DNA of 64,000 nucleotides from Lutimonas zeaxanthinifaciens (GTDB taxonomy: Bacteria > Bacteroidota > Bacteroidia > Flavobacteriales > Flavobacteriaceae), in assembly GCF_030503675.1 (NCBI RefSeq), contig NZ_CP129964.1:2418001-2482000 (forward strand). Direction: 5' to 3'. Below are positions 2,130 to 44,181 of this stretch, one piece after another; position 1 is the first letter of the stretch; every line of letters begins with the position of its first letter. The notes beneath the pieces are model-generated. The model saw nothing but the letters and a program-made list of their open reading frames with translations, did no database searches and was not told the DNA's origin. Both the position numbers and the translations under genes were made by a program.

Positions 2130-2177
2130 AATGTGCCTGAAATTTCATCAATTTTTAAACCTATAACCCAATTCATC

Positions 2178-3371: not shown

Positions 3372-3384
3372 CCTTAGAACTTTT

Positions 3385-3426: not shown

Positions 3427-3427
3427 A

Positions 3428-3643
3428 TTAGAGCTCATCTGAAACAAAACAACTTCTTCCCTCCCGGCATCCCGAAGTTGATACCAATCCATTGTCCGGG
3501 CCAACCCCTCCGGCAGAATTAATACACCAACAAATTGTATTGGCATCATCTAATAAGAGCCAGGGTTGTTCGCCTCCCTCCATCATACCGTATGGATTTC
3601 TGGCACGAAGGAATTTACATATTGCATTCTTTTTTGATTCCAT
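3428..3643 (-). CDS. Small cysteine-rich conserved-looking protein
   Basis: This 71-residue ORF starts 11 bp downstream of the stop codon of the FAD-subunit gene, on the same strand, so it would be the last gene of the aldehyde oxidoreductase operon. It has no signal peptide. The body is well ordered: NPYGMMEGGEQPW, then DDANTICWC, GPDN and finally GCREGRSCF, giving five cysteines in a short protein. The regular Cys/Gly/Trp content argues against a chance ORF. I do not recognise the family. Metal or cofactor handling for the neighbouring oxidoreductase is a guess from position only. Confidence 0.5.
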   Translation of the reverse strand: MESKKNAICKFLRARNPYGMMEGGEQPWLLLDDANTICWCINSAGGVGPDNGLVSTSGCREGRSCFVSDEL

Positions 3644-3654
3644 GGATTCTTTTT

Positions 3655-23256: not shown

Positions 23257-23278
23257 CGTGTAACTATTTATTGTATTT

Positions 23279-24892
23279 CTAAATGTGACTTTCCTGAAGT
23301 CTTCGATTATTTAATTCTGTGGTTACCTCATCAATTTTCTTTTGGTTTAATGGGTAAATCAACATAAACGCTGCTGCTATAACTGTAATCACGGCAGGAA
23401 TCCAGCTCATTAACATAATTATCCCGGGAATTGCTCCTTCAATTGAGCTTGCATTTTGCCCGTCATAAGCAAATGCTCCAAGAACAAATCCTATGATCGC
23501 ACCTGCTATTCCCCCACCAAATTTTGTAGCAAAAGATCCCGCTGAATATATGAGCCCTGTTGCTCTTCGTCCATTCTTAAACTCTGAATAATCGGCAGCA
23601 TCCCCCAGCATCACAAAAAACAGGGTTGGGAAGATGGCTGAGGCAAACTCGGAGATCACTCCTATAGCAAACACAGCTTCAACATCCGTAGGCCCGAGGA
23701 AAAAGAACAAGGAATTTACACCCCCTGAAAAAAGCAAGGCTCCTATGAAAAGGTTTCTTTTACCAAACCTTTTGCCTAATGGTGCAGTCGCCATGGCACC
23801 TGCAACGGAAGCCAGCATAAGTGCCACAAGAAATGAGGCTGCCAGTAACTGGTTGTTCAAATAATGGGTAAAATAAATGATTACGATACCTTGTTTGATC
23901 GAATTATACACGTTGAACAACAAACCAATTACAAGCAGAACCAACCATGGCTTATTGGTTACCAGGTCTTTCAAATCTCTTTTTAGATTGTTCTTTTGAG
24001 ATTTTGGGGGTTGAATTCTTTCTTTGGTCGTATAAAAAGTGATAAACATAAATAGGCTTAAAAAGAAAGCCATGATGTACATTGAATTGCTATAGCCTCT
24101 TTTTTGATCGATAAGTGAAATGCTATCCTCAACAATATTCGATTCACCGGTTACGATAAATGTATATTCTTTTTCAGCTTCCATTTCGAAGCTTTTAGCA
24201 TGTGTTGGCTCACTATCTTTGGCCTTCATTTCAGGGCTTTCCCATACAAAATCGGCAATACCGTTTTCAGTTTTAATATTTACACTGGCTACATCTGATG
24301 GCGCCGACACCGTTACCTTAAATTTCTCTTCCTCCAACTGATCAATCGCAATTTCAGGATTTACATTACCAAAGTAGGCTACCAAAAACAGCAAGGCACC
24401 CTGCACCAGCATCCCGCCTCCAAACGCACCCACCATTCGGTAGGAACCAAGGCTTGTTCGCTCCTTATCATCTCCCGTCATAACCGCCATTAAGGCACCG
24501 TATGGAATATTATTTGCCGTATAAATTAAAGTGAAAAATATATAGGTGATATATGCATATACTATTTTACCAGAATCTCCCAATTCAGGAGAAGTAAACA
24601 ACAAGGAAAGTATGACACCCAAAGGAACAGCCGTCCATAAAATCCATGGTCTGAATTTACCGTATTTTGATTTGGTCCGGTCACCAATTACTCCCATTAA
24701 AACATCGCTGATACCATCACTAAAGCGAGCCACCAACATTAATACCCCTACCGTAACAGGGCTAAGACCAAATACGTCCGTGTAAAAAATAAATAGAAAA
24801 GTAGCTACTCCCCTCCAGGCTATATTCGCTGCACCATCACCCAGGGCATAACCGAGCTTTTCCCTGATGGATAACTTATTAGATTCTGACAT
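23279..24892 (-). CDS. GPH-family MFS sugar transporter with a periplasmic insert
   Basis: This 537-residue inner-membrane symporter belongs to the glycoside-pentoside-hexuronide family: N-terminal [14 protein letters not shown], then [27 protein letters not shown], the hallmark loop. Family members usually have about 450-480 residues. The extra length is a soluble stretch of about 90 residues (about 178-266) between helices 5 and 6, on the periplasmic side by family topology. It has beta-strand and acidic character ([31 protein letters not shown]) like an Ig-type fold. It is co-transcribed with the GH94 gene and most likely imports cellobiose or a similar beta-glucoside. Confidence 0.85.
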
Positions 24893-28547: not shown

Positions 28548-30053
28548 TTACATTGCGCTATAAGCGGCATCAAGCCAGTCCATTCTTTCCTTGTACCATG
28601 CTTTTAAATGAGCAACTTCTGCCTGATGTGAATCATAGACCACTGGATTTGGCCATACATATCTTCCGAAAAGATCCCATTTCTCATCATTTTCATACTG
28701 AGACCATTTCAACTGTGTGGCGTAAAAATCCATTTTATCGAGAATAAAATTTTGATTTTCCCTGTAATACTGAAATCTTGACTTCACTTTCTCCACAAAT
28801 ACAGGATCTTCAAAAAGCCGAGCATACCAGTCATGATCTTTCACCCAAAAACCTGTTGGATGCTCACATTCAGAATAGTCAACATTCCCAAAGGCGAGGT
28901 CAAAATCCCAGAGTGGGCCCATTTTTATCTTTTCACCTGGAATTACATTGAGAAAAATACTTGAAAAACTCCTTGAATCCTGATTCTTTACAATCTCACT
29001 GATGAGATACCAGTCAATAAAACTATCCATATCGATATACTTGACATATCCGGATTCTGGGTCTGCAAACCCAGGCCCCATCAAAACATCCTCAAATTCA
29101 TTGATCAAATCTCTGGCATAATTATAGGTGTCACTATTGTACTCCGTTTCCGGTTCCTTTATGTTGATCAAAAATCTATCGGTTCTAAAATAAACATCAT
29201 CTGGATCCAGCCTTTCCAACTGATCAATTTCCAGCAAATATCCTGTATCTCCAAGAACTACGCGATGATCACTTTCTTCAACTTTTTGAGCAATATTGTA
29301 GGTACCATTATAAACCCCGTTTATGACCACTTCGGCAAATACACTTTCCGGGGTATAATCCAAATCGCTCAAATACCCCATTTCAAAGGCAATTGTGTTT
29401 CGAATTAGCGTTTTATCGGAAAATTCAGCAAGGAAAACCCATTTTTTATCCTCAGGCATCCCCAGCATTTCAGTCTTTTCAGGAAACTTCATTTGAAAGG
29501 GTTTTTTGGGATGCATCCAGGTTGAATTCCCACGACCACGTATCTTCATGGAAGCAGAAGAGAAATCCGAAAAATAACGTCCCCCATCTATGGAAATCGT
29601 ACCTTCAAAATAATCTTCTTTGGAATTGATCTCCTGATTATTATCAGTCTCTATATAAATGATTGGCAAGCCTGTGAAATAGGTCATATCAACCTCGTAC
29701 TGACCTGATTTCCCATCCTTTGTGGAAACCGTATAGTATTGAATTTCAGTAAAGTCGTTGATGCTTTCGCCACTTACCTGGTTCGCATTGTTAACTTTGA
29801 CCTCTTCCCCTGTATGATCAAAGCTGGCAACCATCTTCTCAACATTAACGCCAAGTGGAAGCCGTCCTTGAATCAAGTCATTTTCAATGGTAGCGTATCT
29901 ATCCTTATCCAGGTTCGGGTTATTTGATTTTAAAAAAGAGAATCGGGTTATTTCAGTGCCTTGGACCTCCGGTTCAATACCGGAAGAATCATCACTACAG
30001 GAATTCAGGGCCATTATGGCAACAGTCAAAAATAAAGACCAGTACTTTTTCAT
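28548..30053 (-). CDS. CotH-kinase-like lipoprotein
   Basis: This 501-residue protein has a lipoprotein signal (MKKYWSLFLTVAIMALNSC) followed by SDDSSG, which looks like a flavobacterial surface-export signal. An N-terminal beta-rich domain (about 35-140) precedes a CotH domain: SMKIRGRGNSTWMHPKKPFQMKF, WVFLAEFSDKTLIRN, and WDFDLAFGN, which holds the Asp pair seen in CotH active sites. CotH proteins are atypical protein kinases known from spore coats; bacterial relatives on the cell surface have unknown targets. It has its own promoter and lies between the sugar porter and the GH16/GH17 cluster. A role in glucan use is inferred from position only. Confidence 0.8.
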   Translation of the reverse strand: MKKYWSLFLTVAIMALNSCSDDSSGIEPEVQGTEITRFSFLKSNNPNLDKDRYATIENDLIQGRLPLGVNVEKMVASFDHTGEEVKVNNANQVSGESINDFTEIQYYTVSTKDGKSGQYEVDMTYFTGLPIIYIETDNNQEINSKEDYFEGTISIDGGRYFSDFSSASMKIRGRGNSTWMHPKKPFQMKFPEKTEMLGMPEDKKWVFLAEFSDKTLIRNTIAFEMGYLSDLDYTPESVFAEVVINGVYNGTYNIAQKVEESDHRVVLGDTGYLLEIDQLERLDPDDVYFRTDRFLINIKEPETEYNSDTYNYARDLINEFEDVLMGPGFADPESGYVKYIDMDSFIDWYLISEIVKNQDSRSFSSIFLNVIPGEKIKMGPLWDFDLAFGNVDYSECEHPTGFWVKDHDWYARLFEDPVFVEKVKSRFQYYRENQNFILDKMDFYATQLKWSQYENDEKWDLFGRYVWPNPVVYDSHQAEVAHLKAWYKERMDWLDAAYSAM

Positions 30054-30203: not shown

Positions 30204-30968
30204 CTACTGATATACTTTAATGTAGTCTATGACGAAATCCTGAGGAAAAATAGCATCATCCACTTCCGGGCCTCCGAAATTTCCGCCTACAGCTAAATTG
30301 AGAATAATGTAAAATGGTTTGTTAAAAGGCCAGATCTTCGGATCCTTTGATTGAGGAGAAAAGGTGTAAAATGATTTTCCGTCTATCAAAAAATCTATAC
30401 TTTCCTCCGTCCAGTTTATCGCATAGGTGTGAAATCCTTCTTCGATACCTTCGACAATATCCTTTCTTGTATTCAGAGTAATACCATGACTATCCCGGGT
30501 ATGAAGTGAGGTGAAGATGTATTCCGGTTCCTTTCCAACATATTCCAGGATGTCAATTTCTCCACAATCAGGCCATCCGACCAGGTCTATATTTGCACCC
30601 AACATCCAAAACGCTGGCCACAAACCAACTCCCAGAGGTAACTTTGCTCTCACCTCTATTTTCCCATATTTAAATTCCTTCTTACCTTTTGTTGTGATTT
30701 TGGTTGAGGTGTAAGTTTCTCCCTCCTTTCTTGCAGAAATAAAAAGAAGCCCGTCTTTGACCAGGTGATTCTTTTTGGTATAAATCTGTCTTTCATTGTT
30801 TCCCCATCCGCATAAATGAGGGCAACCGTCCCCGGTTTCAAAATTCCAGGAAGTCATATCAAGATCATTTCCTTTAAAATCTTCTTCCCAGACTAGTTTT
30901 CTTTCCTGTGAATACAAAGAAGTACAGATGAATAGAAATAAAAAATTAAAAAAGAACTTCGATCTCAT
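30204..30968 (-). CDS. GH16 endo-beta-1,3-glucanase (laminarinase), single domain
   Basis: This 254-residue exported enzyme has signal peptide MRSKFFFNFLFLFICTSLYSQ without a lipobox, so it is periplasmic or secreted. The whole mature part is one GH16 beta-jelly-roll. The active-site run GEIDILEYVG places the nucleophile at E137, the helper Asp at D139 and the acid/base at E142; the extra residue in the run is typical of laminarinases. It is the last gene of the glucanase operon, 28 bp after a GH17 gene. It should cut internal beta-1,3 bonds of laminarin-type glucan. Confidence 0.9.
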   Translation of the reverse strand: MRSKFFFNFLFLFICTSLYSQERKLVWEEDFKGNDLDMTSWNFETGDGCPHLCGWGNNERQIYTKKNHLVKDGLLFISARKEGETYTSTKITTKGKKEFKYGKIEVRAKLPLGVGLWPAFWMLGANIDLVGWPDCGEIDILEYVGKEPEYIFTSLHTRDSHGITLNTRKDIVEGIEEGFHTYAINWTEESIDFLIDGKSFYTFSPQSKDPKIWPFNKPFYIILNLAVGGNFGGPEVDDAIFPQDFVIDYIKVYQ

Positions 30969-30996
30969 GGGTTCATTATTTTATTTAAATTATAGA

Positions 30997-31926
30997 TCAG
31001 GAACCGAAATACTCCTGCATTACTTTTTTGGGCCTCCTGTCTTCAGTAAATAGGCCCCAATGCTTTTCGGGTTCAAGCGCATCATCAGAACCTTTCCAGG
31101 ATTCGTCAAAGGCCTCAAACACAAATGTTAGAACATTTTCTTTTTCACTCCATTCCACAAGGTCGTTATAATAAATCCTTTGAAAATCCTCATTTACGTT
31201 ACTCGGATAAATTCCTTTTCCGTTTGAAAAAGTAGTCCATCCTGCTTCTGTAATAACAACCGGCTTATGAGGATAGGCATTGGCCACGGAAAGGTAATTA
31301 CTCACTGTGTAATCCATCGCTTCATGAATTCTTTTGTATTCCCAGACGGGATAGGTATGGATCGAAATAAAATCAACTTCCTCTGCCAGGTCTTTCATTT
31401 TATCCAACCAGGGAAGGTAGTTTTCACAAAAAGTAACGGGTTGTTTTGCCTCCTTCTTTATCATTCTCACATAGTTTATTACACTTTCTACGGGAACATA
31501 ATGATCTGTCCAGTCAACACAAGCTTCGTTTCCGGCAGATAAAGAAAATACAATATCGGGATACTCATTGGCCAATCGTATCAATTTCTTTATGATTTCT
31601 TTATTTATCTTTTTGTTTTCCTCTAATTTATCTTCAGGGTACGTACCTCCCCAGGGGCAACCATAATTATTGGCTTCTGCCACAATATAGGCACCGAGCA
31701 TTACCTTAAAGTCAAATTTCTCCTTTCGAATCACCTCCAACACCATTTCGGAGTGTACATCGCAGTCATACAATCTGAGATATTTCCAGTTTTTCTGAAG
31801 TATCAAAAGATCCTCTTTGATTTGATCATAACTGGGGCTGCTTCCTCCAGGCCATTGTCCTTTTCTATATCCTGAATAACAGATAGCATTTCCTGCCTCT
31901 ATGTTCAGCGCCTGTGTATAATTCAT
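30997..31926 (-). CDS. GH17 beta-1,3-glucanase, cytoplasmic
   Basis: This 309-residue TIM-barrel enzyme has no signal peptide, so it acts in the cytoplasm. Catalytic residues are the acid/base E134 (SAGNEA) and nucleophile E227 (VITEAGW), as in GH17 beta-1,3-glucanases. It differs clearly from the neighbouring GH17 pair: it contains AICYSGYRKGQWPGGSSPSY at the start and is closer to the GH17 lipoprotein encoded at 37808-39094. It likely trims imported beta-1,3-gluco-oligosaccharides, or transfers glucosyl units between them. Confidence 0.85.
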   Translation of the reverse strand: MNYTQALNIEAGNAICYSGYRKGQWPGGSSPSYDQIKEDLLILQKNWKYLRLYDCDVHSEMVLEVIRKEKFDFKVMLGAYIVAEANNYGCPWGGTYPEDKLEENKKINKEIIKKLIRLANEYPDIVFSLSAGNEACVDWTDHYVPVESVINYVRMIKKEAKQPVTFCENYLPWLDKMKDLAEEVDFISIHTYPVWEYKRIHEAMDYTVSNYLSVANAYPHKPVVITEAGWTTFSNGKGIYPSNVNEDFQRIYYNDLVEWSEKENVLTFVFEAFDESWKGSDDALEPEKHWGLFTEDRRPKKVMQEYFGS

Positions 31927-31966
31927 GAATTGAGTTTAGTTAATATTGTAAGAGGGTAAGAATCGT

Positions 31967-32854
31967 TTAAAACTTTTTTAGTTTTTCGTCCTTATCCCAG
32001 ATTCCCCAATAGGCTCCAACATCACCCTCTGCTCCCACTTTCCAAGACTCGTCAAATGACGAAAAGTAGAATATCTCTATGTTGTCGGCTGCCGACCATT
32101 GCTGTGTATTGATAAAATACTTCACCGCATTGTGAAAAGAAGGATGTGATCCTTCGAAACTGGCTCCCATAGTTGGCCAGCCTGTTTCCGATATAATTAC
32201 TTTTTTACCATTGGCCGCTCTCACCGCCTGGTTGTACATTTCCTTCATATAAACCAATGAGTATTCCAAAGGGCACCCTTCCCAAAACGGATAACAATTA
32301 GCTAATATAACATCACATGCCTCTGTAATTTTTGGCCTGTTTGAGAATTCATAATAGGCATCTACATATCCCATAGGTATTTCCGGTAAGGCCTCTTTGA
32401 CCTCATACATAAAGGCAAGTAATTCTTCTTCTGAAAGATCCTTTCTGTACATCACTTCATTACCTACCGCTGCGATATCCACATAGCCCTGTTTTCCGAG
32501 CTCAATTAATTTGGCGATTTCCTTTTTATTAATCTCAGGATCGTCCCCCAACCATGCACCTACCATGGTCTTTAATCCAAATTCTCTAGCGATTACGGGA
32601 ATGGCCTCATTTCCATCTGTACATGAAAAAGATCGAATCCATTTTGTGTAAGGCGCAATGATTTTCATTCTTCTTCTTATCTGCTCCTCGGTTATCTGAT
32701 CTCCCGGCTCCTGACCCTCTTCATAAGGGCTAAAACACAGGCCATGCATTCCATCCTTTAAAAGTCTTTTGAATAAATTCTGTAATCCTTTACTCGTTTT
32801 ATCTTCGTAATCAATTCCTGTTAAGGACCTTAATTTTCCCGCTCGTACTGACAT
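31967..32854 (-). CDS. GH17 beta-1,3-glucanase, cytoplasmic, paralogue of the fused domain
   Basis: This 295-residue enzyme has no signal peptide. Catalytic residues are E133 (AVGNEVM) and E223 (IISETGW). The protein is strongly similar along its whole length to the C-terminal domain of the MFS-GH17 fusion encoded directly upstream, sharing for example GLCFSPY-EGQ, APYTKW-RSFSCT-GNE and CYPFWEGC. Even its first residues (GKLRSL) match the fusion's linker (GKLISL). Only 2 bp separate the two genes, so this is a tandem duplicate. It would act on imported laminari-oligosaccharides in the cytoplasm. Confidence 0.85.
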   Translation of the reverse strand: MSVRAGKLRSLTGIDYEDKTSKGLQNLFKRLLKDGMHGLCFSPYEEGQEPGDQITEEQIRRRMKIIAPYTKWIRSFSCTDGNEAIPVIAREFGLKTMVGAWLGDDPEINKKEIAKLIELGKQGYVDIAAVGNEVMYRKDLSEEELLAFMYEVKEALPEIPMGYVDAYYEFSNRPKITEACDVILANCYPFWEGCPLEYSLVYMKEMYNQAVRAANGKKVIISETGWPTMGASFEGSHPSFHNAVKYFINTQQWSAADNIEIFYFSSFDESWKVGAEGDVGAYWGIWDKDEKLKKF

Positions 32855-32856
32855 TT

Positions 32857-35202
32857 TTAAATATTTTTTAGTTTTTCATTTTTATCCCATATTCCCCAAC
32901 GCTGACCCACATCACCTTCATGATGAACCTTCCATGATTCATCGAAAGAAGAGAAATAATATAATTCTATTCCTTCCTTATTAGCCCAACTCTGAACATT
33001 TATAAAGTACTTTATCGCATTATCTTGAGAAGCTACAGCATCACCCGTTGTACTTCCCTCACTTGGCCAACCCGTTTCAGAAATGATCACCGGTTTACCT
33101 TTGGAAACTTTCTTAACCGCCTTGTACATCTCCTGTAAATATTGCGTCGATTGATCTATATGACATCCTTCCCAAAATGGATAACAATTCACAAGAATTA
33201 CATCACAGGCGTCAACGAGGTCCTGATTCTGCACAAACTGATAATAAGCATCCACATATCCAACAGGTATATCCGGCAGGGCTTCTTTGACCAATTTGAT
33301 ATAATCAATTATATCCTCAGTTCTTAACTCACCTCTTAACAATACTTCGTTACCAACTACGGCCATGTCGACATTTCCGTTTCTTGCCTGTTCGATCAAG
33401 GCCTGAATTTCCAGATCATTTTCCTTCTTGTTATCTTCGATCCAGGCTCCAGCCATAGTTTTCAACCCTTTTTCACGAGCCGCTACAGGAATGAATTCGT
33501 TTCCTTCAGTACAGGAAAATGAGCGCACCCATTTTGTATAAGGCGCTATAACCTCCATTCGATGACGAATTTGGTTTTCAGACAAGATATCACCAATATC
33601 CTGTCCTTCTGCATAAGGACTGAAACATAATCCATGCAATCCTTTTTTTAAGGAACCTAAATACAGTTTCTTTATTTCTGAACTTGATTTTCCAGAAAAA
33701 TCAATATCTGTTCCGGCGCTGCCTTTCAAATCCTTTGATACCAAAGAAATTAGTTTCCCACCTTGATATTTTGCATCCAGGTCCGGGTTTATGTCCGATT
33801 TGCGACGATCGAGTTCCTCACGAATTTCATTGGCACGATCTTCTGTTACATCATAACTCTTCATAATGAGCATTGCAAAGATGGTTCCTACCGCCGGAAA
33901 AAAGCAAAAGAAAGCATGTAATCCATCAACAGCCCCTTGCTGGTCAGTAGTTGCTAAATCTGGATTGAAGCCTACAACACCAATGATAATACCACTCAAT
34001 GCTCCGGCAATCGCAAAACCGACCTTAACCATCCACCAATAAATGGCACCAAAAATACCTTCTCGTCTTTTTCCTGAATTCAATTCGTCAATATCAATTA
34101 CATCGGCTGTCATTGACATCATTATCGTAAATAAACTCCCAATTCCAAAAGAGAAAAAGGGCAAGGCGAAAAGATATAACCAGGGTTTTCCAGGTACAAA
34201 AAGAAAATACATCATGGTGTAGCCTATGAGGGAAATCCCCTGTGACCACATAAATGCCCTTATCTTTCCCATTTTTTTGGACATCCTGGTAACCGCCGGA
34301 ATGACGATAAAGGTTGTCCCCAATGCCCCGATACAGCCAAACAAGGCAACCCAGATTCCAGTGGCAGCAGCATCACCATTAAACAATTTATAGACTATTA
34401 CAAAATAAGTGAGGGCAGCTACGGTATTAAATGCATTAAAAATCAAAAACGTTGCACCGCATATCTTTCTAAACTCTGCTATTTTAAAAGCATCTACAAA
34501 GCTTTGCAGGATTTTCAAAAGACTTCCCCCTATGTTAGAGGTATTCAGCGGCTCATAATTCTCATCGAGGGTGGACTTACTCTTAATAAATATAGCCGGG
34601 ATCATCGCGGCAATTGCACAAGGTACGGCAACCCATGCAGCCAATTCACGAATCGCAACCTCTTGAGATGTGAACCAGTCCGGATCATCCATGATTACCC
34701 AAAACCATGGAGCGATGACCCATGCCCATTGACCGATCCATTGCGCAACAGCCATGATATTTGTTCTTTCGTGAAAGTCATTACTCATTTCATAGCCCAT
34801 AGCGACATAGGGTACACTAAAAAAGGTTAGCCCTAAATAAAAAACAACGGACCATAAAAAGAAATACCAAAAATTATATTGCAAAGCATTATCTGAATAG
34901 ATCTGCCACATCACTGTAAATGCCACGCCCATTAAAACTGCTCCAATAAAAACATAGGGTTTACGTCTTCCGTATTTGGATTTAGTATTATCAGAAATGA
35001 AACCCATGATGGGATCAGTAATGGCATCAAAAATTCTGGGGAAAAAATAAACAAGAGACCACATCCATCCACTAAATCCAAAAGATTGGACCAAAGAGAC
35101 CATAAATATTCCAAGAATAGCAGGAAACATTTGATTGGCAAACATCCCAACTCCAAAGGCCAATTTTTGACCGAAGGGAACCTTATTTGTAATAGCAGAC
35201 AT
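32857..35202 (-). CDS. Fusion of a GPH-type MFS transporter with a GH17 glucanase
   Basis: This single 781-residue ORF contains two whole proteins. Residues 1 to about 450 are a 12-helix GPH/MFS transporter with the family loop FDAITDPIMGFISDNTKSKYGRRKP. A linker of about 40 residues leads to a complete GH17 domain (about 500-781) with acid/base E619 (VVGNEVLL) and nucleophile E709 (IISETGW). GPH proteins have both ends in the cytoplasm, so the GH17 domain should sit at the inner mouth of the transporter and cut oligosaccharides as they enter. No frameshift is visible at the junction. It lies in the glucanase operon, 35 bp after a GH30 gene. Confidence 0.9.
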   Translation of the reverse strand: MSAITNKVPFGQKLAFGVGMFANQMFPAILGIFMVSLVQSFGFSGWMWSLVYFFPRIFDAITDPIMGFISDNTKSKYGRRKPYVFIGAVLMGVAFTVMWQIYSDNALQYNFWYFFLWSVVFYLGLTFFSVPYVAMGYEMSNDFHERTNIMAVAQWIGQWAWVIAPWFWVIMDDPDWFTSQEVAIRELAAWVAVPCAIAAMIPAIFIKSKSTLDENYEPLNTSNIGGSLLKILQSFVDAFKIAEFRKICGATFLIFNAFNTVAALTYFVIVYKLFNGDAAATGIWVALFGCIGALGTTFIVIPAVTRMSKKMGKIRAFMWSQGISLIGYTMMYFLFVPGKPWLYLFALPFFSFGIGSLFTIMMSMTADVIDIDELNSGKRREGIFGAIYWWMVKVGFAIAGALSGIIIGVVGFNPDLATTDQQGAVDGLHAFFCFFPAVGTIFAMLIMKSYDVTEDRANEIREELDRRKSDINPDLDAKYQGGKLISLVSKDLKGSAGTDIDFSGKSSSEIKKLYLGSLKKGLHGLCFSPYAEGQDIGDILSENQIRHRMEVIAPYTKWVRSFSCTEGNEFIPVAAREKGLKTMAGAWIEDNKKENDLEIQALIEQARNGNVDMAVVGNEVLLRGELRTEDIIDYIKLVKEALPDIPVGYVDAYYQFVQNQDLVDACDVILVNCYPFWEGCHIDQSTQYLQEMYKAVKKVSKGKPVIISETGWPSEGSTTGDAVASQDNAIKYFINVQSWANKEGIELYYFSSFDESWKVHHEGDVGQRWGIWDKNEKLKNI

Positions 35203-35237
35203 AAAATTTGGTTTTTAATTAATAATCTTCTTGAATA

Positions 35238-36737
35238 TTACTCCTGTAAATTTGCGACTAATATTGTTTGAATTGCTTGTTTATCAATATTGATTGTCTT
35301 TATTTTTCCATGCATGGACAAGTTAAAGCTCTTTGATTGATCGTCTTCATTGAAAACAATTACAGCAATCGAGCCATCTTCATTTTGAGCAGCCGTAACC
35401 ATCAGTGAACTATCAGAATTCTCAAACCCAATTCGAGTGGCTCCGGGCCTGATAAATTTGCTGAAGTGACTTAAGGTGTAATAGAGTGGGGTCAAATACA
35501 CTTCATCCTTTTCTGGATCTACAATCACAGGTGCAATACACCAGTTTTTAAACCAGTTAGGCCCACCTTTTTTGTCAAGTACCATATTCCAGTCAACCCA
35601 ACCGTCTACCCAGTTATTCAAACAGCCGATAATATCTCTTGCATATCGATTAACCGGCGCATATTTTGGATGCAAATGCTTGTCCTTTTCAGGGGCCCAG
35701 TCCCACCCCCAGTCTGTCGCATTTTTTTCAAAATACCATTTATCATCTTTCCACACTGGAACTTCAGCATCCACACAGGCTTCAGATTGGATCAGTAGCT
35801 TATCCGGTGCCTTCTCATGGGCATACTGCAACTCCTCGGGAAATACTTCAAAAGTACTTGCATACCAATGTATGGCAGTTCCGTCAAAATATTTTGAGCT
35901 CTCTTCATTCTTGTATTGAGAATCAACCCATTCCTTTAAGTGCTCTCTGTTTTGATCGTAACCTAATATTTTGAGATTTCCCTTACCATCTGCCTCTAAT
36001 TTTGGACCTAAATGATGCACAACAAAGTTGGTCATTTCATCGGGTGAAAAATGCATGCTTTCCCAGTTATTCCCATTTCCCAGAGGTTCGTTTTCCACCG
36101 TGAAACCCCAAATATCAATACCCTCTTGTTTATAAGCATCAACGTATTTAGAGAAGAATAATGCCCAGGTATCATAATATTTAGGTAATAATTTCCCACC
36201 AACCCAATTCTTGTTGTCTTTCATCCAAGGTGGCGCTGTCCATGGGGAAGCAAAGATCTTGAAACCATCTTCAGAGGTCTCCATCGCGTCTTTAATAAAG
36301 GGAATAAGATCATCTTTGTCTTCTTCTATTGAAAAATGTTTAAGATCTCTATCGTCTTCAATGGGGGCATAAGAGTAATTACCCAATGAAAAATCGCAAG
36401 AATTCATATGTGTTCTTGTCAGAGAATAGTTAGCTCCATCTTTACCAAAATACGCATCGATTATTTTCTTCCGATTCTCTTTCCCCATTTTATTCAATAA
36501 ATAAGCCGAAGATTCAGTAAATGCACCGCCAAACCCGGTAATCTTCTGATAAGTTAATTCAGGATCAATTTTTACAGTTTCTGTCCCTATTGTTTCCGGA
36601 AAATCAGTTACTCTTGAAAGTTTTTTTCCTGCAATGGAAGTTTCATAAACCACCACCTCAAGCCCCTTATCATTCGATTCGCATCCCGTTGCCATGGCTA
36701 AAACTAAAATCAAAATCAAATAATTACTCTGTTTCAT
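35238..36737 (-). CDS. GH30 beta-glucanase/glucosidase lipoprotein
   Basis: This 499-residue lipoprotein has signal MKQSNYLILILVLAMATGC; no acidic export signal follows the Cys, so it probably faces the periplasm. It has the GH30 fold: an N-terminal strand, the TIM barrel starting at ITGFGGAFTESSAYLL, and a C-terminal beta-domain. Catalytic residues are acid/base E217 (TVENEP) and nucleophile E319 (IQSEAC). GH30 members near laminarin genes remove beta-1,6-linked glucose side chains or cut beta-1,6-glucan. It is a distant paralogue of the GH30 at 44182-45663. Confidence 0.9.
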   Translation of the reverse strand: MKQSNYLILILVLAMATGCESNDKGLEVVVYETSIAGKKLSRVTDFPETIGTETVKIDPELTYQKITGFGGAFTESSAYLLNKMGKENRKKIIDAYFGKDGANYSLTRTHMNSCDFSLGNYSYAPIEDDRDLKHFSIEEDKDDLIPFIKDAMETSEDGFKIFASPWTAPPWMKDNKNWVGGKLLPKYYDTWALFFSKYVDAYKQEGIDIWGFTVENEPLGNGNNWESMHFSPDEMTNFVVHHLGPKLEADGKGNLKILGYDQNREHLKEWVDSQYKNEESSKYFDGTAIHWYASTFEVFPEELQYAHEKAPDKLLIQSEACVDAEVPVWKDDKWYFEKNATDWGWDWAPEKDKHLHPKYAPVNRYARDIIGCLNNWVDGWVDWNMVLDKKGGPNWFKNWCIAPVIVDPEKDEVYLTPLYYTLSHFSKFIRPGATRIGFENSDSSLMVTAAQNEDGSIAVIVFNEDDQSKSFNLSMHGKIKTINIDKQAIQTILVANLQE

Positions 36738-36790
36738 AAAATATTCTTGTCTTTAACACTAACATGCCAATGCGGAACTGCTTAATTAGA

Positions 36791-37807
36791 TTACTCGTTA
36801 TATTTTTGTTTTACAATTTCAAAAGTTTCTTTTTTGTTTCTGTCGATATCAACAATTCCCCAAAATTCTTCATTTGGTGTTCCGTCATAAGGTACACCCG
36901 TACTGTTTGGTGCCCATCCACCTATATCTTGTGAATCGTTGTTACCTGCTTTCCACCACCCATCTGTAAAGGAAAACAAGGTTACTCCCGAACCTACATC
37001 CATATGGTTAAAAATACTTTCTAGAATTTTAGAGTTTGCACCGGCCTGTGCCTTTTCATTCACTCCCTTGTTATAACCATTCTTTGAAATCGTCATATAG
37101 CTATCACCTCCGGCTTCAGACAAATACATGGGTTTACTACTTATCTTTTCCCATTGAGCAAATATTTCGTTGGGATTATCCCATCGGTAAACATTCATAC
37201 CCCAAACATCAATGTTCGGACAGGAAGAAAGGGCCAGATCATCTGGTAATTCCCCGTGAGCTGTTGCCACAGGATGATTAGGATCAGTTCTATGGATCAA
37301 TTCAGCGGCGTTATTCATTGCTGTGTACCAGTTTTTCAAATCGCCTTCAAACCATTCGGGATGATAATTGTATTCGTTACCCAGTTCCCATAATAAAATG
37401 GCCTTATGCGATTTATACTTATTCACATATTCAATAAAAGATCCGGAAAGAATGTCAAAATTTCCATCCTGATTGTAACCAAATCCGATAATTACTTTTA
37501 TCCCTGCATCATCAAAAGCATTTAAAACTTCAATGTCATCAATCGGCGCGTAAACCCTAATCGTATTGATCCCGGCTTCTTTCATTAAGTTCAAATCCTG
37601 GGTTAAATTCCCAAAATCTCTTTGATCGCTTCCTTTTGGAACAGGGTGATAACAAATTCCTTTGATAATATACGGAACACTGTTGACCATGATCTTTCGT
37701 CCAGATACCGTTACTTCCTGTAACTCTTCAGGGGTTTTATATGAAACTATTGCCCCTGCAATTCCAATTACAGTCAAGAACAATACAAATAGAATATTTT
37801 TTTTCAT
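36791..37807 (-). CDS. Clan GH-A glycoside hydrolase (GH2/GH5/GH72-like barrel)
   Basis: This 338-residue exported TIM-barrel enzyme has an N-terminal signal or membrane anchor (KKNILFVLFLTVIGIAGAIV). After a short lead it shows IKGICYHPVP and AGINTIRVYAP, as in GH2 barrels and in GH72 glucanosyltransferases. The likely acid/base is E145 (ELGNEYNYH) and the nucleophile E231 (YLSEAGG). It lacks the beta-sandwich domains of true GH2 enzymes, so the family cannot be fixed by eye. Its start codon follows the stop codon of the GH17 lipoprotein gene with no gap. A glucan hydrolase or transglycosylase role is inferred. Confidence 0.65.
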   Translation of the reverse strand: MKKNILFVLFLTVIGIAGAIVSYKTPEELQEVTVSGRKIMVNSVPYIIKGICYHPVPKGSDQRDFGNLTQDLNLMKEAGINTIRVYAPIDDIEVLNAFDDAGIKVIIGFGYNQDGNFDILSGSFIEYVNKYKSHKAILLWELGNEYNYHPEWFEGDLKNWYTAMNNAAELIHRTDPNHPVATAHGELPDDLALSSCPNIDVWGMNVYRWDNPNEIFAQWEKISSKPMYLSEAGGDSYMTISKNGYNKGVNEKAQAGANSKILESIFNHMDVGSGVTLFSFTDGWWKAGNNDSQDIGGWAPNSTGVPYDGTPNEEFWGIVDIDRNKKETFEIVKQKYNE

Positions 37808-39094
37808 TTATTCGGTTGTTGGTGGTACTGAAACCGTTTTCATTAAAGCTTCCATATCTCCCTCAAAGGACTTGGTTATCGGGTTCCCTCCTCTGGAAAG
37901 ACCCTCAAAGGTACCATTGTCTACATAGTTCCAGATGGCATACTTAGCGATCCCGTCAACGGTCATCAAGCCAAAATGATTTTCTGAACCCATAGGATTT
38001 TTTGAATCTTTCCAAGGCTCATTAAAAGCCTCAAAATAGAAGCAAGATATACCTTCCTTGTTCGTCCAGTCTCTCATAAGCTGATAGTACCTTCCTTCTT
38101 TATATTCATCTGTTGCTCTTGATCCTTCGTCACCATAAAAACCATCTGATACCGTTGCCCATCCGGTTTCTCCAATATGAATAGGTTTATTTACCCCAAT
38201 GCTTTTCATGTACCCGGCAACGCTGTCATACTGCTTCTTTGCAAAATCCCTGGCGCGAAGCATCGCTGCATCAATTTTTTCAATTTCCGTTAATTTCTCA
38301 TCGTCTTCAATGATCCAGAATTCAGGATTATAATGCGTGTTGTGATAAGGATAGGTATGCATGGACACATAGTCTACAGCATGATATAATTTTTCAAGGT
38401 CCTCTGTATGGTATTCAGCTCCGCCTCCACCCCAGGAAGAAAAGTCGTCAGAACTGGTAATCCACATGTCTTTAGGAAGCTCACCCGATTTTTTAAGGTC
38501 CTGTAAATAATTAACCCATTTTAAAATAACAGAAGGCTGAACAAAATAAGTTGCTGCCCAATGTACCATGGCCTCATTTCCAACTGCCATTACGTTGACA
38601 ATATCGGGATATTTATTGGCCAATCTTACAGCTTCTTCCACCTGTGGCTTATTGGCTTCACTTTCAACAGTATGATCTGGTTCCTGGTCCGTCCATGCAT
38701 TTTTACAATCGATCCAAATCCCTAACATGACGTACATCTCAAAATTCTCATCTTCCTCTTTTAACTCAGTGATCGCCTGAAGTAAATTGGCGGCTTGTGG
38801 TAAATGCACTTTATAGGTCCGAACAATTCCGATTCCCATTGATGATAATATTTTCATATCTTCCTTAAGTTCATCGATTGTTGGTTCAATATCATGATCA
38901 GGGTATCGATATCCTCCGTAAGACATAGCGAGATACTTCGGATTTCCCAGTATATCGGCTGCTGTAAGCTCTTTTGATGTCGTCATTTGATTTTCATTAT
39001 TCTCTGATTGTTCTTCTTTTTTCGAATTTTTTCCGCATGACACTACCATCAAAATGACCAGTAATGTAACTAAACTTTTCAAATAGTTTTTCAT
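37808..39094 (-). CDS. GH17 glucanase lipoprotein
   Basis: This 428-residue lipoprotein (MKNYLKSLVTLLVILMVVSC) has a charged linker (KNSKKEEQSENNEN) followed by a GH17 barrel. Acid/base is E174 (AVGNEAM) and nucleophile E309 (IGETGW). The Cys is followed by basic residues, not the acidic export signal, so it is probably periplasmic. It is longer than the cytoplasmic GH17 proteins because of extra loops in the barrel and a C-terminal extension. It starts 8 bp after the GH149 gene. Likely role: cutting imported beta-1,3-gluco-oligosaccharides in the periplasm. Confidence 0.85.
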   Translation of the reverse strand: MKNYLKSLVTLLVILMVVSCGKNSKKEEQSENNENQMTTSKELTAADILGNPKYLAMSYGGYRYPDHDIEPTIDELKEDMKILSSMGIGIVRTYKVHLPQAANLLQAITELKEEDENFEMYVMLGIWIDCKNAWTDQEPDHTVESEANKPQVEEAVRLANKYPDIVNVMAVGNEAMVHWAATYFVQPSVILKWVNYLQDLKKSGELPKDMWITSSDDFSSWGGGGAEYHTEDLEKLYHAVDYVSMHTYPYHNTHYNPEFWIIEDDEKLTEIEKIDAAMLRARDFAKKQYDSVAGYMKSIGVNKPIHIGETGWATVSDGFYGDEGSRATDEYKEGRYYQLMRDWTNKEGISCFYFEAFNEPWKDSKNPMGSENHFGLMTVDGIAKYAIWNYVDNGTFEGLSRGGNPITKSFEGDMEALMKTVSVPPTTE

Positions 39095-39102
39095 GATGTA
39101 TT

Positions 39103-42100
39103 CTATTTTTTAATGGAAACTATAATCTGATGAATCTCTCCGGTTCTTTGAAATAGTTTTTTACTCGTATCCACATCCAGTTTCAACTCAGAGGATTCAA
39201 CTGTCTCCCCAGAATTAAATATCAATTGCAGACCTTCTCCGCTATCTAACTTGTAGGTCACAGGTATTTGACAATAGGTAAAACAAAGGGAGTCTTTATC
39301 CACCTCGATTTCCTTTAACTCTTTGTCAATAGAAACATAACTAAAGGTTTTCGGATTTTGTAAAAACTCTTCCTTTCTCAACAGGTGAGGTTCAAAGTAA
39401 ATTTCTCCCTGTTTGACAAATACACCCAATTCTCCAAAACGACTTAAAATATCCTCCTTGACCTGTCCGGTCATTCCTGGCTGTTGAGCACCTTTGGTTG
39501 CAGGCGTATGCGAATATGGATCCGTAGGAAAGGCTCCGTAAAGTTCCGGTGATTTATGGACTCCAATACCCTCACTTGCCTCATAATAGTGTTCGAGCAG
39601 CTTCCCAATGGTAACGTCATCAAGTCCTTCTTCAATGGCGGCAAGACAGGTTTCCTGAATACTAAGAACCAGCTTGGAAACCATATGCCAGTATATTGAA
39701 CCTAAGCCTTCATAACCAAAGAAAGTTCCTGATCTTCCGGTAAAGGATTTATGATCAAAAATATCTTCAAAGATATCAAGAAGTAATTGAGTGTCTTTTT
39801 CAACCATAACATCATATGCTTCAGGTAATTCTGACAATGCCTTTTTCAAACTATCCGCATTATTGAAGGTCCCGTTAAAATGGCATACTCCATTAACATC
39901 TTTTTCAATCACCTGTTTATTGTCATCGGCCAATAGTTTAGTTAATAATGCCGACTGTTGGACTCTCTCACTGTCAATATTGTTTTTTACGTCAAAGCGA
40001 GGTAAGTCCTTATCAGGATATAGAATGTAACTGTACTGGTCCTCTCTAAATAAGGCACTGGCTTTTAAGGCATCCAAAAGTTCGAGTGAATCTTTTCCTG
40101 AGATGTATCCCGAACTTAAAACTGCTACTTGTCCCTCTAACATTTCAGGCAGATAAGAAATAGAAACCTCTTCATCGTTTTCAACAGTCATTAGATTATA
40201 GGCATGATAAAGCCTGTCGCTTCTCTTGTTTGCCTCAATTGAATGCTCCAGATATTTTTTTGAGATCTCAAGAAAACTCAAGAGATCCTTTTTAGAAATT
40301 GCACCCTTGTCACTTGAAAATCCGTTTTCGTAAATCCCAAGTCGATAATCACTACCTGCACTGCCCAATCCATCTAAAACAGTTTTTCGCTCTCTGTCAG
40401 ATACTTTCCCGGCAAGAATTCCTTTGTTCTCAATGAATGTTGCATGTACTTTATTAAAAAACTCTGCAAGTTCAATGGATACTTCATTATCTCCGTCAGC
40501 AACTTTTTCTACAATTCCTTCAAAGAAATTCAGAAATCGCCTCAAATAATACAAGGTCACCATGGATACACCGTTCCCAACAAGCGCATTATTGGCATCA
40601 TTCCATTCAGGTCGCTGGGTATTCATCCATATACCTCCTTCGGGAATAAAATTGGATAATTTAGCCAAAACGGTTGCCAGTAATTTTTCAATGAGATTTA
40701 CTTTGTAAATGAAGAAATTCTTATCTCTCAACAAGGCTCCGTCTGCTCCTAATTCAATTCTTTTCTGCGCGATTCTTTGATCTGATTCATGATCAAAATC
40801 AATGGTATCCTTTGGGTTTTTTAAAATATCCTCGTAACTCTTTATTCTGTAGGGTACATTGGCATAAACGAAAAAATCCTTTTGAAAGTAACTGCCCAGC
40901 TGATCTGGGTAATGATCTTCGATGAACTCTAAGAACTTCAGTAAATAGATGATCTGATGATCGCCCCAATATCCAATATAAGACCAAGGATCATCCGGCT
41001 CAATCGTCTCCCAGTCGAATCCGTCTTTTGTAACACGGTAAGGATTGTAACCATCAAAAGTTGTAGCGTTTAAAAATTTATGGATCATACTCTCGATAAA
41101 CTCAGGATAGGAATGGGCAAGCGCTTCCCAGTTTTGAAAGATATCCCTCCAGTTCCCCTCGTAATCCAGTATTTTGGAACCATCCAGTTCACTTGTAGTA
41201 TTGATCGAAAATCTGTTCCAGGGCCTGCTTGGATCACCGTGTCGTCTACTGAATTTTAAGGGCATATACTCTGTTGCAAGCCTTTTGAAATTTTTATCTT
41301 CGTCATTTTGAGCCAGCCCCTTTAAATGACTTAAGGTGAATTTATCGGGTAGATTGGCGAGAAGTGTTTCCTTTTTCTTGAATACTTTTTTATTGGCTAT
41401 TTCCAGATATTTGATAAAATCCCACTTTTCAATCTGGTAGCCATCATCAAAGATACCACCACGCATAATATTGAATAGTGTATTGGCAAAGTGCCTTGTG
41501 TTCATCAATTTATCGGCCGTTAGCTGTAAGGCGTCAGAAGCCGCATTCAACTCAAGTAAATTTTTCGAACCCAGCTCAATATCTTCCTGAACCACTGACT
41601 CAAGATCCTGGCCTGATTTTAGCATCTGAGCAATATCGCTCACGTCAACCATGGATTGATTTACATTGGCCACCAGCATCCAGTTCTTCTCGGAATCAGG
41701 CTCAATATCCAGATTCTGACATACCAGATAGGCTCCCTTTTCAGCTTTAATATCGACTTCCTGAGTAACCTGTTTGCCTCTTCTAAAATTGTCTACCTGC
41801 AAGGACGAAAGCAGGTAGGTTGGATCCTCTGTTCCCACCGACCAAACCGTAGTGGCCTTTAAAGCTTCACTTGGTTCAGCCTTATCCACAATAATGGCAC
41901 TAAGGGCATAAATACCAATACCTGTATCAGCCTCCAGTTCACATTTTTTATAGGCATCGACCAAATTACTTCGGCTGTTCTGCAATCCTTCATTTACGCC
42001 ATAAGGCAAAATATTTTGAATACCATCCAGAATCGTGGTTTCAACCGAAGATGAGGAATTATTGATCAAACTCGATTTTCTGACAAAACCAAATCGATTA

Positions 42101-42561
42101 CTTGAGTTCCACTGGTATCTGAATGTAAGTCCGAGATCTTCATTGATTTCTTCAAAAAGGACTTTGTTTCCGTAACTGTTCTTGTACAGATTACGGTGAA
42201 CTTTATAAATTCCAGAGAATCGATCAGAAAATGGCTCCCACAGATAGGTCTTCCCTCCTTTATGTACCTGTAATAAGGTTTTGCTTCCCGTAATATCCGC
42301 AGACTCTGTAATTTTATCATCTGTGTAATAAGGAAATAATGAAGATTCACTATCCTTTCTTCCTGCAGAAAGCCCTCCATTGCTGGAAATGAACATCCAG
42401 TGATTTGAATCACTTACAATACTCATAAAAAATGGCCTCATGGCATCGCTGTTCTTTATTTTATAGTAATTCTCATTTTCAAATGAAATTAACTTACCTG
42501 TAATTTCCTTCGAATCAAATGATGATTCTGTCTGTCCTAAAAAAATCTGATTCTTACTCAT
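39103..42561 (-). CDS. GH149 beta-1,3-glucan phosphorylase
   Basis: This large cytoplasmic enzyme (about 1,150 residues) has the size and style of GH149 phosphorylases, which release glucose-1-phosphate from beta-1,3-gluco-oligosaccharides. The N-terminal beta-sandwich resembles GH94 enzymes (SSNGGLSAGRK, TYLWEPFSD). The catalytic helical barrel has RPEWNDANNALVGNG, with D655 as the candidate general acid, and CHFNGTFNNAD plus HKSPELYGAFPTDPYSH further on. The start at 42561 is favoured over 42588 because AGGAAAA precedes it by a few bases; the other start would add nine residues. There is no signal peptide. It is placed between the sugar porter and the GH17 lipoprotein gene. Confidence 0.8.
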   Translation of the reverse strand: MSKNQIFLGQTESSFDSKEITGKLISFENENYYKIKNSDAMRPFFMSIVSDSNHWMFISSNGGLSAGRKDSESSLFPYYTDDKITESADITGSKTLLQVHKGGKTYLWEPFSDRFSGIYKVHRNLYKNSYGNKVLFEEINEDLGLTFRYQWNSSNRFGFVRKSSLINNSSSSVETTILDGIQNILPYGVNEGLQNSRSNLVDAYKKCELEADTGIGIYALSAIIVDKAEPSEALKATTVWSVGTEDPTYLLSSLQVDNFRRGKQVTQEVDIKAEKGAYLVCQNLDIEPDSEKNWMLVANVNQSMVDVSDIAQMLKSGQDLESVVQEDIELGSKNLLELNAASDALQLTADKLMNTRHFANTLFNIMRGGIFDDGYQIEKWDFIKYLEIANKKVFKKKETLLANLPDKFTLSHLKGLAQNDEDKNFKRLATEYMPLKFSRRHGDPSRPWNRFSINTTSELDGSKILDYEGNWRDIFQNWEALAHSYPEFIESMIHKFLNATTFDGYNPYRVTKDGFDWETIEPDDPWSYIGYWGDHQIIYLLKFLEFIEDHYPDQLGSYFQKDFFVYANVPYRIKSYEDILKNPKDTIDFDHESDQRIAQKRIELGADGALLRDKNFFIYKVNLIEKLLATVLAKLSNFIPEGGIWMNTQRPEWNDANNALVGNGVSMVTLYYLRRFLNFFEGIVEKVADGDNEVSIELAEFFNKVHATFIENKGILAGKVSDRERKTVLDGLGSAGSDYRLGIYENGFSSDKGAISKKDLLSFLEISKKYLEHSIEANKRSDRLYHAYNLMTVENDEEVSISYLPEMLEGQVAVLSSGYISGKDSLELLDALKASALFREDQYSYILYPDKDLPRFDVKNNIDSERVQQSALLTKLLADDNKQVIEKDVNGVCHFNGTFNNADSLKKALSELPEAYDVMVEKDTQLLLDIFEDIFDHKSFTGRSGTFFGYEGLGSIYWHMVSKLVLSIQETCLAAIEEGLDDVTIGKLLEHYYEASEGIGVHKSPELYGAFPTDPYSHTPATKGAQQPGMTGQVKEDILSRFGELGVFVKQGEIYFEPHLLRKEEFLQNPKTFSYVSIDKELKEIEVDKDSLCFTYCQIPVTYKLDSGEGLQLIFNSGETVESSELKLDVDTSKKLFQRTGEIHQIIVSIKK

Positions 42562-42630
42562 TTTTCCTGTTTTTTGCAGTACAAACATCGCTGTACTTAT
42601 ATCGTTCGGGTTTGTTAATTATAAATTCTT

Positions 42631-44142
42631 TCAATTAATCAATAACTCTTCTACTTCTTCTAAACTTTTTCCTTTGGTCTCGATAACAAATTTCATCACA
42701 AAGAGTAACGAAAGAGCCGCCATAATCGCATAGATAGCGAAGGTCCAGGTAGGTCCCAGATTGGTCAATTCCCATGGGAAAAACTGGGTTACCGTGTAAC
42801 TTACCAAAGAATTAAAGAATCCTACTACCGAAATTGCAATTCCTTTGATATGACCCGGGAAAATCTCTGACAACAGGGTCCACATAACCGGGCCTAAAGA
42901 AATAGCAAATGCTGCAACATATAGCAGGATTGCTATCAACACCAAGGTTGCATTAATGCTGATAAATCCTTTAACCTCATTTCTTTTGAAACTAAACAGC
43001 TGGTCTTGATTTAGCACAGGAGAAACAGCTGCAAAGATTTCTTTTTGAGAATTGTAGGTATTACCTGATAATTCACTCATCGCTGTTCTCATATCTTCGT
43101 TTTGGATTGTTGACAAGGTCTCTTCATTGATATCATAAGTGGCGTTATTAAAAGCCATTGTGGCCATCGATAGGGCCACTGTCATCGCCCCTGTACCAAT
43201 GATCAGGAGTGGTTTTCTACCTAACTTGTCAATTAATCTAATAGCCACCAAAGTGAAAACCAGATTCGTCAGTCCCACGACAATGGCCTGCAGAAAAGAA
43301 CTGTCCGTGCTCCCTCCTGCCTGTTCAAAAATGGTAGGTGCATAATAAAAGATCGCGTTTATACCGGTTATCTGTTGAAAAAAAGCAATTCCAAAAGCTA
43401 TGGTCATAATAGTTGCCATCCGGCTGCTGAACAATTCTCTGAGTGTCCCGGCTTTTTCTTTTTTGGCAACCCCTCTTTGAATTTCATCGACGGTTATATC
43501 TGCATACTCCTTCCCACCAATCTTTATCAATATTTTTCTGGCCACCTCCACAAGGTTCAATTTCTGGATCAGCCATCTCGGACTTCTTGGAACGGCAAAA
43601 AGAGCCACAAAATAAAGGAATGCCGGAACTACCTCAACTCCCAGCATCCACCTCCAGCTCTCACCATCCAGGTCCTTAAGAAAATAATTCGAAAAATAGG
43701 CTACTGAAATACCGATTACAATATTTAACTGATTCAATGAAACAAGACTTCCTCTAAGTTTTGGTGGAGCTATCTCCGCGATGTAAATTGGAGCAATCAG
43801 GATGGCACCGCCAATACCAATCCCTCCAATAATTCTAGCCGTTACAAAAGCAACATAGGTGGTTGCCAGGGCAGACCACAAGGCTGAAATGGTAAAGAGC
43901 ATCGCGGTTACGAGCAATACCTTCTTCCTTCCGAATTTATCGCTCATTGGCCCGGCGACTATGTTTCCGGCCATCGCTCCAAAAATCACACAGCCCACTG
44001 AAAATCCAAGTTCCCAGTCTGACATTTCAAAATAGGTTCTTATTCCACTTACTGCTCCAGAAATTACAGCACTATCAAATCCAAGTAGAAAGCCACCGAG
44101 TGCGACGATGAAACTTACAAAAAGCGTATAGGATTTATTCAT
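42631..44142 (-). CDS. MFS sugar porter with an extra periplasmic loop
   Basis: This 503-residue inner-membrane transporter has the sugar-porter signatures GGFLLGFDSAVISGA, DKFGRKK, VPRSPRWLIQKLN, QQITGINAIFYY, DKLGRKP and IETKGKSLEEVEE. Between helices 9 and 10 (about residues 332-391) it carries a soluble insert of some 60 residues, outside the membrane by family topology. Its paralogue at 26970-28427 has a shorter loop there. It is second in the operon, between the GH30 gene and the GH149 gene, and likely imports glucose or small beta-glucosides freed in the periplasm. Confidence 0.85.
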   Translation of the reverse strand: MNKSYTLFVSFIVALGGFLLGFDSAVISGAVSGIRTYFEMSDWELGFSVGCVIFGAMAGNIVAGPMSDKFGRKKVLLVTAMLFTISALWSALATTYVAFVTARIIGGIGIGGAILIAPIYIAEIAPPKLRGSLVSLNQLNIVIGISVAYFSNYFLKDLDGESWRWMLGVEVVPAFLYFVALFAVPRSPRWLIQKLNLVEVARKILIKIGGKEYADITVDEIQRGVAKKEKAGTLRELFSSRMATIMTIAFGIAFFQQITGINAIFYYAPTIFEQAGGSTDSSFLQAIVVGLTNLVFTLVAIRLIDKLGRKPLLIIGTGAMTVALSMATMAFNNATYDINEETLSTIQNEDMRTAMSELSGNTYNSQKEIFAAVSPVLNQDQLFSFKRNEVKGFISINATLVLIAILLYVAAFAISLGPVMWTLLSEIFPGHIKGIAISVVGFFNSLVSYTVTQFFPWELTNLGPTWTFAIYAIMAALSLLFVMKFVIETKGKSLEEVEELLIN

Positions 44143-44181
44143 AAATGATAGGTTTGGTTCATTGATTCATTGTATTTTAAA

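Follow-up and report, generated by a model that had tools for sequence, protein, structure and literature searches.

Why should a sugar transporter carry a glycoside hydrolase within the same polypeptide? The question is raised by one gene (32857..35202, minus strand) in a 64,000-nucleotide stretch of the genome of the marine bacterium Lutimonas zeaxanthinifaciens, which was analysed as a whole and is referred to here as the window. The gene is a single uninterrupted ORF with an ATG start, 781 aa long, and encodes a GPH/MelB-type MFS symporter with a C-terminal GH17 domain, as identified from the ORF, Pfam, sequence alignments and an AlphaFold2 model searched with Foldseek. An initial annotation, made from the sequence alone, had proposed that import and cleavage of oligosaccharides are coupled in this molecule. 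Here we consider whether the fusion is real, on which side of the membrane the enzyme lies, how the attached domain relates to other GH17 enzymes and what attachment may achieve.

Architecture and membrane topology of the fusion

The transporter domain comprises residues 1-470 (33793..35202) and the GH17 domain residues 506-781 (32860..33687), separated by a linker of about residues 471-505 (33688..33792); all are on the minus strand. Pfam MFS_2 matches residues 16-454 with 203 bits (cut-off 27), and Glyco_hydro_17 matches residues 688-779 with 54 bits (cut-off 28.2). Wider cover of the barrel is given by a phmmer match of residues 543-764 to RmBgt17A of Rhizomucor miehei (PDB 4wtp, E 4e-36). 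In this alignment both E619 (33346..33348), the acid/base, and E709 (33076..33078), the nucleophile, fall on glutamates, and the site of E709 is alanine in the active-site mutant 4wtr. E619 is Glu in 88 of 88 fusions and E709 in 87, the remaining one being truncated before the site (L146 was left out of the 88-fusion residue counts). Thus, the (beta/alpha)8 barrel and both catalytic glutamates of GH17 are present, as had been claimed.

The Tyr-Trp-Glu triad of GH17 transglycosylases is incomplete. Trp677 and Glu678 (W191 and E192 of MlGH17B) are kept, here as in 87 of the 88 fusions (the other is truncated) and in 125 of 125 standalone GH17 enzymes. Residue 622 (33337..33339), three after E619, is the site of the transglycosylation tyrosine (Y102 of RmBgt17A, Y136 of MlGH17B) and is leucine in the window fusion. 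All three residues are present in the adjoining paralogue (31967-32854), which has the tyrosine. RmBgt17A (PDB 4wtp, 4wtr, 4wts) shares the fold and the catalytic pair with the fused domain; unlike it, RmBgt17A is a separate fungal transglycosylase with the tyrosine.

In the transporter part, D59, D63 and K393 align with the Asp pair and Lys of MelB (PDB 4m64) and are invariant in the 59 aligned fusions; we take their MelB counterparts to be D55, D59 and K377, with the roles that these residues have there. Foldseek placed the modelled domain on MelB with TM-scores of 0.83-0.86 by target (PDB 7l16 and 9old, the latter 0.86). The MelB-like fold and the MFS_2 score bear out assignment to the GPH type, although the NCBIfam gph model TIGR00792, matched over its full length, scores 176 bits, below its cut-off of 231. 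MelB itself carries melibiose and has no fused enzyme. From the aligned sequence, the transporter part is probably a cation-coupled sugar symporter.

The AlphaFold2 model, computed with 59 fusions in the alignment, has a mean pLDDT of 86.6 and a pTM of 0.67, with both domains confident; the enzyme part matches RmBgt17A with a TM-score of 0.86 by target. The linker is of low confidence (pLDDT block means of 49, 73 and 58 over residues 471-500) and is probably a flexible tether, and the stretch from residue 450 to 522 ranges in length only from 68 to 81 aa across the 59 fusions. The relative placing of the two domains appears to be left unfixed by the model. Because the linker is of low confidence and probably flexible, there is no fixed alignment of the enzyme with the transporter exit and no built-in channel. 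The initial placing of the enzyme on the cytoplasmic side at the exit is supported as to the compartment, but not as a fixed position at the exit.

The compartment is indicated by charge. Lys and Arg residues number 26.2 per sequence in loops predicted to be inside, compared to 2.7 in those outside, and the inside count is larger in 59 of 59 fusions (loop bounds were drawn from the model, with the N-terminus assumed inside). In addition, the standalone paralogues are without a signal peptide, as judged from N-terminal hydropathy in 164 ORFs, which come from two of three sets, include some duplicates and differ from the 164 standalone domains of the tree described below. The sole strongly hydrophobic start is that of an ORF that begins further upstream than the conserved MSYR start; the next-highest hydropathy is 1.6, compared to 2.3-3.2 in secreted-type neighbours within the window. 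Together with the MelB fold, the clear reading is that the GH17 domain is cytoplasmic.

Laminarin locus and published relatives

The fusion is one of ten minus-strand genes (30204-45663), spaced 0-53 bases apart, that encode, in order from the 5' end, GH30, a sugar transporter, GH149, GH17A, a GH2_C-like protein, GH30, the fusion, a standalone GH17, a third GH17 and GH16. Further upstream are genes for SusD, a TonB-dependent receptor, two GH16 enzymes and a protein with a weak, sub-cut-off LuxR-type match. With GH17A, GH30, GH149 and SusC/D-like genes, the locus is a laminarin-type PUL. The standalone GH17 (31967..32854), 2 bases from the fusion, matches the fused domain at 57% and, like the third GH17 (30997..31926; 30% to GH17A), has no signal peptide. 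Lipoprotein-like N-termini were identified in the GH30 next to the fusion (35238..36737; Pfam, N-terminal hydropathy), which likely acts in beta-1,6 debranching outside the cytoplasm, and in the GH17A-type laminarinase (37808..39094). The GH149 beta-1,3-oligoglucan phosphorylase (39103..42588; 1632 bits to PDB 6hq6) has no hydrophobic N-terminus. All of these are on the minus strand. Just beyond the laminarin genes, a GH94 phosphorylase gene is paired with the gene of a second GPH transporter, unfused and 537 aa long (20821-24892), and a gene for a CotH-kinase-like protein (28548-30053) adjoins the laminarin genes.

Among 79 related loci, the 60 longer than 20 kb encode GH149 whether the transporter is fused (51 of 51) or unfused (9 of 9), and the same counts apply to a match to GH17A; GH30 was found in 35 of 51 fused and 9 of 9 unfused loci. 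A match to the third GH17 occurs in 59 of the 60, and may be GH17A itself. The initial annotation had tied the fusion to GH149. The phosphorylase is a constant neighbour, but, being as constant beside unfused transporters, it goes with the locus and gives the fusion no special support. In some Muricauda clusters, GH3 is found in place of GH149 (PMC13188888).

The design of a transporter fused to GH17 is not new, as it is already published for a relative, and the initial statement that no characterised example was known to its author has to be withdrawn. In the available passages of Unfried et al. (2018; PMC6246565), FORMB_24740 of Formosa sp. Hel1_33_131 is described as an MFS protein with a C-terminal GH17 (FbGH17B). 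The GH17 was expressed and assayed as an exo-beta-1,3-glucosidase that acts on debranched laminarin only (KM 2.6 mM), is inactive on branched laminarin and takes oligosaccharides to glucose; coupling to uptake of the hydrolysis products was already suggested there. Like the window gene, FORMB_24740 has an N-terminal 12-helix MFS part and lies with GH30 and GH17A in a laminarin PUL. From this description we infer kinship of the window fusion to FbGH17B. Unlike FbGH17B, which has Met at the tyrosine position (PMC11005184), the window fusion has Leu; Met is also found in the fusion of a Formosa MAG (L040), 67% alike to that of the window in both parts.

GH17-MFS fusions were described again in 2023, in further Bacteroidota and in Gammaproteobacteria (SAR92, Luminiphilus, SAR86) (PMC10108472). 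The Variant 1 laminarin PULs of North Sea bloom MAGs resemble the window in having GH17 fused to an MFS gene, and differ from it in being also gammaproteobacterial (PMC10108472). Phrase searches of the literature for further transporter-CAZyme fusions returned none, although one of them overlooked the 2018 paper itself, so this says little.

MlGH17B of Muricauda lutaonensis, a beta-1,3-glucanosyltransglycosylase, is a GH17 of the same kind from a similar locus, where it follows an MFS gene (PMC11005184, PMC13188888); FbGH17B is 53% identical to it (PMC11005184). MlGH17B is a single-domain enzyme with the tyrosine, and by description it matches the standalone enzyme at 31967-32854, not the fused domain. 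In an Allomuricauda MAG (L029, 9992-12358), the transporter is unfused and the standalone GH17 encoded after it has the tyrosine, an arrangement that matches the one published for Muricauda (PMC13188888, PMC11005184). Given this agreement, MlGH17B and FbGH17B probably represent two lineages of paralogues. The two have been compared in print as genes in corresponding positions; a division into two lineages would help explain their different activities.

Spread of the fusion and two lineages of GH17

The fused frame is open in the nearest record, a Lutimonas saemankumensis locus (L009, 99% identical), and in 67 of the 79 other loci kept, which are the best 80 of 262 minus L009, a set that favours full-length matches; the frame of L057 ends early, at 690 aa. 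In 12 of the 79 the transporter is unfused. Since the fusion is conserved in relatives, a sequencing error at the junction, named at the outset as what would overturn it, is ruled out, as is a chimera, and the one-ORF fusion is real. Decay of the fused domain was also rejected: dN/dS is low, 0.02-0.23, among the computable pairs listed (dS is saturated or zero in others), despite identity lower than that of the standalone enzymes. In 173 pairs whose transporters are at least 85% alike, mean identity is 0.73 for the fused domain vs 0.78 for the standalone, and the fused domain is the less identical in 134; some of these pairs involve copies of a single genome, and the pairs are interdependent.

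Of 395 genomes sampled from the phylum, 53 have a match with an E-value no higher than 1e-30, and 15 of these have a fused frame. At 1e-60, matches were found in 24 of 395 genomes of the class sample, 133 of 397 of the family sample and 11 of 22 of the genus sample, and a profile of 40 fused GH17 domains recovered 112 of the 397 family genomes at 1e-100, with at least 27 fused frames. Two candidates per genome were scored in the phylum, class and family samples and up to six in the family profile search, where further copies may be missed; all were scored in the genus sample and in the genomes with unfused transporters discussed below. Record titles of fused loci, several of them MAGs, name Flavobacteriaceae, Weeksellaceae, Cyclobacteriaceae, Flammeovirgaceae, Lewinellaceae, Saprospiraceae, Microscillaceae, Reichenbachiellaceae and Chitinophagaceae; the sampling lies outside the gammaproteobacterial fusions. 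No relative of the fusion was identified in the viral contigs searched, and no record spanning 80% of the query in the plasmids searched. A Vibrio fortis transporter (47%, L223) has a neighbour that matches neither GH17 of the window significantly. Several transporters of 43-46%, with apparent open frames of about 1,025 aa, were considered as other fusions and rejected, as they are ordinary ORFs of about 476 aa in the loci examined (L203 was inspected in detail).

The GH17 domains fall into two lineages. In a tree of 182 rows (178 different, with L009 and eight duplicate or overlapping loci left out), fused and standalone domains split at one branch, 82 versus 100 rows, with an SH-aLRT of 98. 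When loci from the sampled genomes of the phylum, the family and the genus were added, giving 269 different domains (nine loci, alignments below 230 residues and 15 identical domains were left out), the tree has a fused clade of 104, all fused, and another clade of 165, made up of 164 standalone domains and one fused; thinning at 90% identity leaves 95 and 134. The gene of the standalone kind usually adjoins that of the fusion. The split is kept at 97/99 in a mixture-model analysis of 72 selected rows from which column 622 had been removed, with the bootstrap unsettled. A search of the 397 family genomes with the fused-type profile gave fused frames for 19 of its 20 best matches and a frame truncated at a contig end for the remaining one; each of the 20 scores at least 469.9 bits, compared to 461.7 for the best standalone. 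Another eight fused frames have lower scores, within the range of the standalone enzymes, and the profile score thus separates the two kinds only in part.

The one fused member of the other clade (L145, genome G042, ORF 1881-4343) is an 820-aa transporter-GH17 fusion that keeps the tyrosine; with all 8 candidates scored, G042 yielded no further GH17 match at 1e-60. Judged by its place in the tree, this is an independent second fusion event. A direct test covered G042 and 43 genomes whose transporter is unfused, a selection from those of the phylum, family and genus samples, with all candidates scored. Of the 43, 29 have GH17 matches of this kind and 14 have none at 1e-60. Each of the 30 frames placed (29 standalone and the fused one of G042) has Tyr and lies outside the fused clade; of nine second copies, seven were already among the standalones of the 269-domain tree and two (G808, G975) are unplaced. 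A freed domain of the fused type was thus seen neither in the fused clade (0 of 104) nor in the 43 chosen genomes, which suggests that the attached GH17 forms a separate lineage, observed up to now in the attached state only.

The lineages differ at position 622, where, in RmBgt17A, Tyr102Ala abolishes transglycosylation (PMC11005184, citing Qin 2015). The fused clade (n=104) has Leu in 54, Met in 22, His in 18, Phe in 5 and Tyr in 5, and the other clade (n=165) Tyr in 156 and Leu in 9; after thinning at 90%, Tyr remains in 5 of 95 versus 127 of 134. The nine standalone enzymes with Leu are those of L015, L031, L033, L089, L138, L139, L140, L165 and L177, and six of them (L015, L031, L033, L089, L165, L177) adjoin a fused gene. 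Given these nine, the five fused-clade enzymes with Tyr and the Tyr of L145, loss of the tyrosine marks the clade rather than fusion as such, and is no strict rule. As each clade has one ancestry, the loss is essentially one old change, varied since, and not many independent ones. The fused clade, in which the tyrosine is mostly lost, probably consists of specialised hydrolases.

In trees of the transporter, 15 changes of the fused/unfused label, 10 of them forced, occur over 107 rows (again without L009 and the eight loci that were duplicates or overlapped), and 23 changes, 16 of them forced, over 187 rows. The larger tree held a few copies of one gene trimmed differently; a recount on 182 rows thinned at 99% gave 23 changes, at least 18 of them forced by starred branches. 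Unfused transporters reach 91% identity to that of the window, and 89-91% within the genus. In two draft genomes of the same genus (L218, L219), the transporter ends at the junction and is followed by GH16, with the fused domain and two other GH17 genes absent from that place. In nine other unfused loci, a standalone GH17 lies 0-57 bases after the transporter. Many closely similar transporters, some of them from the same genus, lack the domain, which is therefore dispensable. The counts of changes cannot tell gain from loss of the domain; we favour loss, given that the fused domains make up a single clade.

Role in laminarin utilisation

We consider that the fusion is probably the inner-membrane step of laminarin utilisation, in which a symporter with a tethered cytoplasmic hydrolase works beside a soluble transglycosylase and a phosphorylase. 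As to the sugar transported, cation coupling, the roles of the two kinds of GH17 and the order of action, we infer the following. Outside the cytoplasm, the lipoprotein-like GH30 and GH17A would debranch and cut laminarin, as their N-termini and published relatives indicate. The symporter part would bring in debranched laminari-oligosaccharides, probably with a cation, given the conserved residues of the MelB cation site. The C-terminal GH17, on its flexible cytoplasmic linker, would hydrolyse chains as they appear, which the GH17 of FbGH17B does in vitro. The soluble paralogue next door, which keeps the tyrosine, would probably transglycosylate, and GH149 would phosphorolyse the remaining chains. 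Through its tether, the hydrolase most likely reaches incoming chains before the other enzymes, and kinetic coupling of import and cleavage in one molecule is plausible. The further proposal that the enzyme feeds GH149 with chains of the right length is unproven. FbGH17B is reported to take chains to glucose (PMC6246565), and would thus compete with GH149 for them.

It is also conceivable, if rather doubtful, that the tether sets only stoichiometry and position, and that the domain is an ordinary cytosolic glucosidase without kinetic coupling. The low-confidence linker is consistent with this, as is absence of the domain while transporter and locus stay (12 of 79 loci; 23 label changes in 182 rows). 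However, a domain that does not need its tether should sometimes be freed, and none has been seen free, either among the 104 of the fused clade or in the 43 chosen genomes; the top 20 family profile matches, with their 19 fused frames and one contig-end cut, also argue against it. We think it quite unlikely that transglycosylation is the main activity of the fused GH17, or that the domain senses substrate and thereby regulates the transporter: retention of Trp677 and Glu678 in 87 of 88 fusions (the other truncated) and the 53% identity of FbGH17B to the transglycosylase MlGH17B (PMC11005184) would fit, but the tyrosine is missing in 99 of 104 members of the fused clade and FbGH17B takes oligosaccharides to glucose (PMC6246565). 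A periplasmic GH17 that trims oligosaccharides before uptake, which would accord with the coupling of hydrolysis and product uptake in the 2018 paper (PMC6246565), is most improbable given the MelB-like fold, the inner-loop charge bias in 59 of 59 fusions and the paralogues without signal peptides.

The fused-only GH17 clade, its mostly lost tyrosine and the one independent fusion are testable points that do not appear in the passages of the literature consulted. The same is true of the repeated fused/unfused changes, which provide naturally occurring pairs from a single genus. Laminarin makes up a large pool of carbon in the sea, and PULs that carry the fusion are reported to be expressed in bloom bacteria (PMC10108472). 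We suggest, very tentatively, that the hydrolase lineage may be obligately tethered, its value being to intercept chains at the transporter exit before the soluble transglycosylase makes beta-1,6-kinked products that resist the phosphorylase. If so, the tether would set the kinetic order among three enzymes with one common substrate, and the domain would for this reason be lost, rather than freed, when the transporter goes alone.
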